Assembly (NCBI GenBank): GCA_020722805.1
Contig: DYKA01000005.1
Span: 1-41,100 of the forward strand
Length of the DNA stretch: 41,100 bases
Source: Vermiphilus sp.
Lineage (GTDB): Bacteria; Ratteibacteria; UBA8468; B48-G9; DTJG01
Reading direction: 5' to 3'
Part shown: one piece after another, positions 25,325 through 27,246 of the stretch
Position numbering within the stretch: the first letter of the stretch is position 1
Layout of the letters: every line of letters begins with the position of its first letter
Notes under the pieces: model-generated
Databases searched by the model: none
Told to the model about the DNA's origin: nothing
The model's input: the letters and a program-made list of their open reading frames with translations, nothing else
Position numbers and translations under genes: made by a program

Positions 25325-25354
25325 GATAGACATACACAGTAGTACCATTGAAAC
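25325..25354 (+). repeat. Copy 1 of perfect 30-bp direct repeat GATAGACATACACAGTAGTACCATTGAAAC
   Basis: Identical to 25391-25420; the next base (A) is also shared, so duplication is 30 or 31 bp. Confidence 0.98.
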
Positions 25355-25390
25355 ATGAGAAAACTATTCCAACCTTAATCAACCTTTTAA
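25355..25390 (+). other. 36-bp spacer-like segment between the two repeats
   Basis: ATGAGAAAACTATTCCAACCTTAATCAACCTTTTAA, 10/36 G+C; no second copy noticed in the window. Confidence 0.6.
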
Positions 25391-25420
25391 GATAGACATA
25401 CACAGTAGTACCATTGAAAC
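25391..25420 (+). repeat. Copy 2 of perfect 30-bp direct repeat GATAGACATACACAGTAGTACCATTGAAAC
   Basis: Identical to 25325-25354, offset 66 bp. Confidence 0.98.
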
Positions 25421-26064
25421 AAGGCAGTCAGTTCCATGGTCTTTCATAACAGGAACACCTGATGGAATCGCAGTCCTCAAAGGTGATGATGTTTCAGGAT
25501 CATTGAGGTTTGGAATTCACTATCATAAGAAAGCCCACTCAATTGGACTTGTATGGAGCAGCCCGTTTGAAATGAACTACACAGGGAGTTTTTCAATGAC
25601 AAACATGCCTGACCCACCGCCGTTTCCCGGCATAAAGAGCAATGTCAGCAGCAGCTTTACAATAAAGTTTCCAGAGATATACTCTCTGGGTTATAGATGG
25701 AAAGGTAGTAGAATGAGCATTCAACTTGGAACTGAATTTGTTAGATATTCCTGCCTGAAAAGCATCAGGGTTGACGCAGGTCCTGACAGTTTCCTGATTC
25801 CTGAGATTGAAAAGAACTGGAAGGATGTCTGGACACATTCTGCGGGTTTGCAATACTGGATAAACAGCAGGTGCGATATTGCCGCAGGAATAGGTTTTGT
25901 TGAATCACCTGTTCCGGACAACACATTTGACCCGCTGCTTCCTGACGCAAACAGATTCATCTATACAATAGGAACAACAATCAGGACAAAATCAGGCACA
26001 ATTTCATTTTTCTATATGTACAACCAGTTTGAAAAGAGAAATATCCAACAGGGGAGGTTCACAG

Positions 26065-27246
26065 ATGGAATCTACAAATCTTCCGGAAGTTTTATCGGCT
26101 GCGGGTACACAGCGGACATCTGACAAACCTGTGGTTCTTGTAATTGATGATGAACTCGGCCCGAGAGAGTCATTGAGAATCCTTTTGAATGACAGATATT
26201 CGGTTGTAATTGCAACAAGTGGTGATGAAGGAATCAATATGCTCAGGTCATATCCTGTGGAAACAATTATCCTTGATCTGAAGATGCCGGGAAAATCAGG
26301 CATTGAGACACTTGAAGAGATAAGAAAACTGAGCAGCGATGTACCTGTAATTATCCTCACTGGATTCGGTACACTTGAAGCAGCACAGAAAGCAGTTCAT
26401 CTGGATATCTTTGAGTTTGTCAGCAAACCATTTGACATAAATGAAATGAAGAACATTGTAAAACGTTCCATTGAGAGATACAGGGTTAAGGCATCAACAA
26501 GAAATATCCTTGACCAACTGCAGAAACTCAATCTAACTCTTGAAGAAAGAATTCATGAACTGGAAAAGTTTGCGATGGTTGGTGAACTTTCAGCAGAACT
26601 ATTGCACGAAATAAATAACCCTCTTACAATCATACTCGGATATGTCCAGATACTGCTGGCAGAAATAAATAAGAAAAACAAAGCGTCTGTTGATGAAACC
26701 CAGAAATATCTGCAGGTTGTGGAAAACGAGGTCAAAAGGTGCCAACTTCTTGCAAAAAGTTTTCTTGATATTTCTAAGAAAACATTCAAATATGTACCAG
26801 TGAACATCAATTCATTGATTGAGAATATGGTTTACTTCCTGAAGGACAATCCTGTTGCAAAAAACATTAAATTTTTTTGTAATTTTGATCCTGAGCTCCC
26901 CCTGGTTATGGCGTCGCAGGAACAGCTCCAGCAGGTCTTTACCAATCTCTTTATAAATGCTATTGAAGCCATCAAATCCAGCGGCTCAATAACCATTTCA
27001 ACCCAGAAAGACGCAAACAAAGTCATCATAAAGATCGCTGATACAGGCGTCGGAATGCCGCCTGAAGTCGTTTCAAGAATATTCAAACCGTTTTTCACAA
27101 CCAAACAGGACAGAAACACAGGCATTGGTCTGACCATAACAAAAAAAATAATTGAGGCGCATAAGGGCACGATATCTGTTGAAAGCAAAGAAGGCCAAGG
27201 AACCACATTTACAATTTCTTTTTCAGCATATTCACGGAACGTCTGA
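26065..27246 (+). CDS. Receiver - histidine kinase protein (N-terminal REC, HisKA, HATPase)
   Basis: VVLVIDDELGPRES, IILDLKMPGKSG, FVSKPF; LLHEINNPLTIILGY; TNLFINAIEAI, ADTGVGMP, NTGIGLTI. Start MESTNLPEV overlaps the fadL-like 3' end by about 59 nt. Confidence 0.9.
   Translation: MESTNLPEVLSAAGTQRTSDKPVVLVIDDELGPRESLRILLNDRYSVVIATSGDEGINMLRSYPVETIILDLKMPGKSGIETLEEIRKLSSDVPVIILTGFGTLEAAQKAVHLDIFEFVSKPFDINEMKNIVKRSIERYRVKASTRNILDQLQKLNLTLEERIHELEKFAMVGELSAELLHEINNPLTIILGYVQILLAEINKKNKASVDETQKYLQVVENEVKRCQLLAKSFLDISKKTFKYVPVNINSLIENMVYFLKDNPVAKNIKFFCNFDPELPLVMASQEQLQQVFTNLFINAIEAIKSSGSITISTQKDANKVIIKIADTGVGMPPEVVSRIFKPFFTTKQDRNTGIGLTITKKIIEAHKGTISVESKEGQGTTFTISFSAYSRNV

Follow-up and report, generated by a model that had tools for sequence, protein, structure and literature searches.

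A spacer-sized insertion interrupts a FadL-family outer-membrane transporter gene in the genome of an uncultured bacterium, Vermiphilus sp., and off-target integration by the host type I-B Cas4-Cas1b-Cas2 complex is very probably its best explanation. The unit, in which two copies of a native gene segment flank a single-copy insert, was analysed in a window of 41,100 nucleotides (positions 1 to 41,100 of contig DYKA01000005.1), as well as in the context of the 182-contig assembly to which this belongs. The original prediction had already read the unit as an off-target spacer integration, and this reading is now supported by the cas genes of the genome, by the size of its array, by the empty site in related genomes and by a second unit lying beside a tRNA gene.

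Structure of the unit and the empty site in relatives

The features of the unit are collected in Table 1. An exact duplication of 31 nt, GATAGACATACACAGTAGTACCATTGAAACA, recurs with a period of 66, its two copies being separated by the 35-mer TGAGAAAACTATTCCAACCTTAATCAACCTTTTAA. The perfect 30-bp duplication around a 36-bp insert, as originally described, was confirmed as regards the duplication itself, the 30-mer core GATAGACATACACAGTAGTACCATTGAAAC being exact at 25325-25354 and 25391-25420, while the lengths had to be revised, since identity runs one base further and the insert is thus one base shorter. The true length of the duplication is ambiguous within 29-31 nt, and a duplication of 30 nt would correspond to an insert of 36 nt starting at 25355. 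When up to 3 mismatches were allowed, no further copy of the 30-mer was found in the genome, and the 35-nt insert was single-copy. A plain tandem duplication, which had been considered unfit from the beginning, was also rejected here, since it would have copied the 35-mer too, and this occurs once; no tandem repeat is formed at the unit.

Table 1. Features of the interrupted FadL-family gene (positions in the window)
Feature	Position	Strand	Basis
5' part of FadL/OMPP1/TodX-family outer-membrane transporter gene, 171 aa	24843..25358	+	Pfam PF03349, E 8e-15; ORF list; translation
First copy of the native target segment, identical over 31 nt; minus strand (T)GTTTCAATGGTACTACTGTGTATGTCTATC	25325..25355	-	14/29 identical to native repeat
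Unique insert, spacer-like, 35 nt	25356..25390	-	TGA at 25356-25358 in the gene frame; single-copy
Second target copy; leader-like side probably at higher coordinates	25391..25421	-	Exact repeat; orientation from target likeness to the repeat
Rest of the FadL-family gene, open for 254 codons past the TGA	25359..26123	+	PF03349, E 1.7e-22; uninterrupted homologues in seven congeners

The transporter is matched by the same Pfam family on both sides of the insert, and the frame stays open across the two target copies apart from the TGA. In fact, the gain of 66 bp amounts to 22 codons and keeps the frame, the stop codon that opens the insert being what ends the protein at 171 residues. The function of the gene would thereby have been lost. 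In seven genomes of the same genus, the gene, 62-79% identical to the 3' part, has an open frame with no stops, and the corresponding site (for example, SIGSGIDIHKSFIETRQSIPWSFI) is free of the insertion and holds a single copy of the segment in all seven, nucleotides having been compared in six of them. Therefore, this lineage has acquired the 66 bp, and the segment that was duplicated belongs to the original gene, in accordance with the original proposal of one ancestral copy and a gain of this length, for which the alignment to close relatives had been suggested as a check.

Adaptation machinery and array of the host

The genome encodes a single Cas1, located on a contig of 3.7 kb (C49) with the gene order cas4, cas1, cas2, leader and array. 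This protein is a type I-B Cas1b according to the NCBIfam model TIGR03641 (462.6 bits, with a cut-off of 304), and Cas2 and Cas4 likewise exceed their curated cut-offs. The array next to these genes has a 29-nt repeat, GTTTTATCTGAACCATGTGGGATATAAAG in leader orientation, with spacers of 36 and 37 nt and a period of 65-66; in the rest of the assembly this repeat was not found again. The search for cas1, cas2 and arrays, which the original prediction had called for, was thus answered positively as regards the genes and the dimensions of the array. The same contig carries, at its edge, the terminal part of a gene that is Cas3-like by eye; a search for Cas7 homologues in this assembly gave none, so that activity of the system as a whole is putative. 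Between the cas3-like fragment and cas4 (C49 2126-3419) there is an ERCC4-domain gene (PF02732) together with a small gene which looks SEC-C-like by eye; in the congener G007, cas4 follows cas3 directly, without these two genes.

The size of the repeat is shared by related systems. One congener has the same repeat, with a period of 65, beside a I-B operon with cas8b, cas7, cas5 and cas3. The related Cas1b loci with a recognisable array have mostly 29-nt repeats and a period of 64-68, and more distant Cas1b relatives from other phyla show 29-nt repeats of similar pattern, again with a period of 64-68. The unit in the fadL gene, with 29-31 nt and a period of 66, is of the size written by this Cas1b. 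A second type of Cas1 was rejected as the culprit, the 37-nt repeats with a period of 72-81 found in congeners adjoining a different Cas1, while here there is a single Cas1 and a unit of 29-31 nt. On the other hand, the original expectation of a repeat with the 3' end ATTGAAAC did not hold, since no array ending in this way was found in this genome and the native repeat starts with GTTTTA in leader orientation. Such an ending does occur in the congeners G005 and G002, where a diverged Cas1b (about 50% identity) is accompanied by the 30-nt repeat GTTGTGAGCCTACCTACGAGGAATTGAAAC.

The insert would be of foreign origin. The search for a protospacer, also proposed originally, gave nothing: for the inserts of both the fadL and the tRNA units, no source was found in the genome, in 290 genomes (up to 3 mismatches), among the 22-mers of IMG/VR, or in phage and plasmid collections, and neither protospacer nor PAM was found for the fadL insert in these collections. 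The phage and plasmid matches obtained for both inserts had E values of 0.02 or worse and less than 80% query cover, and were treated as chance. An insert derived from the genome itself was discarded as well, no match being found there at up to 3 mismatches.

A second unit beside tRNA-Arg(CCG)

Exact repeats of at least 18 nt lying within 300 nt of each other were searched for in 1,090,285 bases of the genome (61%). Apart from the array itself, the scan yielded exactly two units with the geometry considered here, the other hits being about a dozen repeats that are short, tandem or dispersed and unrelated to it. Chance is excluded as their origin, because there are only two such repeat pairs outside the array in 1.09 Mb. 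The second unit is located on a contig of 1.3 kb (C167), at 1125-1153 and 1190-1218, and consists of a 29-nt duplication and a 36-nt insert with a period of 65. It starts within the T-arm of a tRNA-Arg(CCG) that is itself intact, at the 3' end of this tRNA. In four congeners with similar downstream sequence the unit is absent, and the tRNA continues straight into what follows the second copy. That this geometry recurs beside a tRNA strengthens the off-target reading of the fadL unit. Moreover, the two target copies are identical to each other both in the fadL unit and in the tRNA unit, which fits recent events. The inserts of the two units are unrelated in sequence, with no shared ends and no inverted repeats.

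Likeness of the targets to the native repeat

The minus strand of the fadL target, GTTTCAATGGTACTACTGTGTATGTCTATC, begins with GTTT like the native repeat and agrees with it at 14 of 29 positions, a modest similarity. By sequence comparison, this strand of the gene (GTTTCAATGG...) appears to be a better match to the native repeat than the ATTGAAAC 3' end, its GTTTC end being the counterpart of the repeat end next to the leader. For the tRNA target, GTTCAACTCCCACCAAGCGCGTACTACCC, the number of positions agreeing with the native repeat is 13 in the forward direction and 14 in reverse; the forward target is preceded directly by TGTGG, and the native leader ends in CTTGG. When all registers and both strands are allowed, the p-values are 0.056 for the fadL target, 0.020 for the tRNA target and 0.0028 for both jointly. 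In addition, both targets present a 5' G on each strand, if the duplications are taken as 30 nt for fadL and 29 nt for the tRNA. It has been reported that in vitro off-target sites of another Cas1-Cas2 favour guanine and sequences resembling the leader-repeat junction, the preference for guanine apparently being shared by Cas1 proteins from various systems (PMC6895254). Nevertheless, target likeness by itself is not convincing, and it is the size, the empty sites and the recurrence that carry the argument.

The fadL unit was rejected as a functional CRISPR array, having neither a local Cas6 handle nor a leader. The eight bases at the 3' end of the native repeat are ATATAAAG and those of the target are TGTCTATC, and given this difference a working crRNA from the unit seems unlikely. 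Upstream of the target there is coding sequence that does not resemble the native leader.

Proposed mechanism and rival explanations

A prespacer of about 36 bp would have been loaded on Cas4-Cas1b-Cas2, the first attack taking place at the leader-like end of a fadL site which partly mimics the leader-repeat junction, that is, probably on the side of the higher coordinates. The opposite strand would then have been attacked about 30 bp away, as in a CRISPR array, and gap filling or repair would have copied the target on both sides, giving a repeat-spacer-repeat structure. It would be the normal array reaction, carried out at the wrong place. What speaks against this reading is that the searched collections yielded neither protospacer nor PAM, that the fadL site is only modestly similar to the repeat, that the duplication length is ambiguous, that the assembly is fragmented, with the second unit on a short contig, and that a Cas7 homologue is missing from it.

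A similar structure could in principle be produced without Cas proteins by template-switch or break repair, where a break with ends staggered by about 30 nt is repaired by fill-in and takes up a 35-nt fragment, since repair with filler can duplicate directly around unrelated DNA; the lack of a protospacer in the collections searched is also compatible with it. Such a process, however, predicts scattered lengths, while the two off-array units, the only ones in 1.09 Mb, measure 31/66 and 29/65 (duplication/period), in agreement with 29/65-66 in the array, and neither a local nor a genomic template for the insert was found at up to 3 mismatches, which makes this origin very unlikely. That strain variants or misjoined reads had generated a false repeat-insert-repeat would fit the fragmentation of the 182-contig assembly and a 31-nt overlap which is of k-mer size. 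The 35-nt insert must nevertheless stem from real reads, and there is no other copy from which it could have been misjoined; moreover, an artefact would have no reason to match the period of the array, as the second unit does at an unrelated place, so that this explanation is regarded as extremely unlikely.

Other integrases duplicate their targets too, and the 3' end of a tRNA, where the second unit sits, is a classic integrase site, which would suit a transposon- or casposon-like footprint left as a long target duplication after the insertion and excision of another element. Target duplications are about 2-14 bp for insertion sequences and about 14-15 bp for casposons, against 29-31 bp here, and inserts which are mutually unrelated and have neither shared ends nor inverted repeats do not fit either. 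The probability of such a footprint is next to negligible.

Comparison with known systems and significance

Natural off-target integration has reportedly been proposed already (Nivala et al. 2018), and what is new here is a type I-B case, with empty sites, a match to the ruler of the local array and a genome that holds two units. The natural events that Nivala et al. reportedly put forward were in Yersinia pestis and Sulfolobus islandicus, and to our knowledge convincing wild cases of integration outside the array are few. In cells, overexpressed Cas1-Cas2 integrates spacers into genome regions other than the array (PMC11788318, citing Nivala et al. 2018), and the work of Nivala, Shipman and Church (2018, Nat Microbiol 3:310), as cited in PMC11788318 and PMC9456107, described 'non-canonical' off-target integration giving rise to neo-CRISPR loci. 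As that work is presented in these citing papers, both cases have in common a spacer-sized insert at a chromosomal site outside the array, attributed to Cas1-Cas2 working elsewhere than at its array. That work reportedly used overexpressed E. coli Cas1-Cas2, while here the system is type I-B and belongs to an uncultured bacterium; the present case adds empty sites in seven congeners, the ruler match, and one event breaking a coding gene together with another beside a tRNA.

The off-target sites of the type II-A Cas1-Cas2 of S. thermophilus (PMC6895254) favour guanine at the attacked base and are similar to the leader-repeat junction, features that the units may share. That system was studied in vitro, with mostly half-site products, whereas complete two-sided products are fixed in the genome described here. 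The 'ectopic' acquisition of Streptococcus, in the passages of PMC7999890 and PMC5338259 that deal with it, means integration at the wrong place inside the array; a new spacer is likewise gained away from the leader end, but the events so described stay within the array, while the fadL and tRNA units lie outside it.

Integration outside the array could seed new CRISPR loci and also imply a cost for the host through mutation, CRISPR adaptation appearing as a natural source of insertion mutations. The combination of a unit matching the local array in size with an empty site in relatives provides a sequence-only recipe applicable to all genomes, which could be used to measure how often adaptation goes astray, as well as the rule governing the targets. 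A wider and rather doubtful extension is that the Cas4-Cas1b-Cas2 of this lineage might act as a recurrent natural insertional mutagen, planting neo-CRISPR units at sites resembling the leader-repeat junction, including tRNA T-arms (GG|GTTCAA...CCCACC), possibly by way of a missing or uncoupled interference module, and leaving a readable chromosomal record of failed targeting.

Dispersed repeats

Among the other repeats observed, a 28-nt pair with a period of 75 on contig C56 was rejected as a further unit, its size being unfit and its position lying in an apparent dispersed palindromic repeat. After the tRNA of the second unit (C167 1222-1298) there is a dispersed element, GGAGTTGAATGGAGCG..., which is present several times in this genome and many times in the congener G004, and looks like a REP-like or small mobile element. 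Related GC-rich dispersed repeats, GCGGCCTCGTCTCCCACTAC...CGCATAGGTCTTCGCTTGCTC, are present in several contigs of this genome (L112:2643, L138:5697, L152:243).
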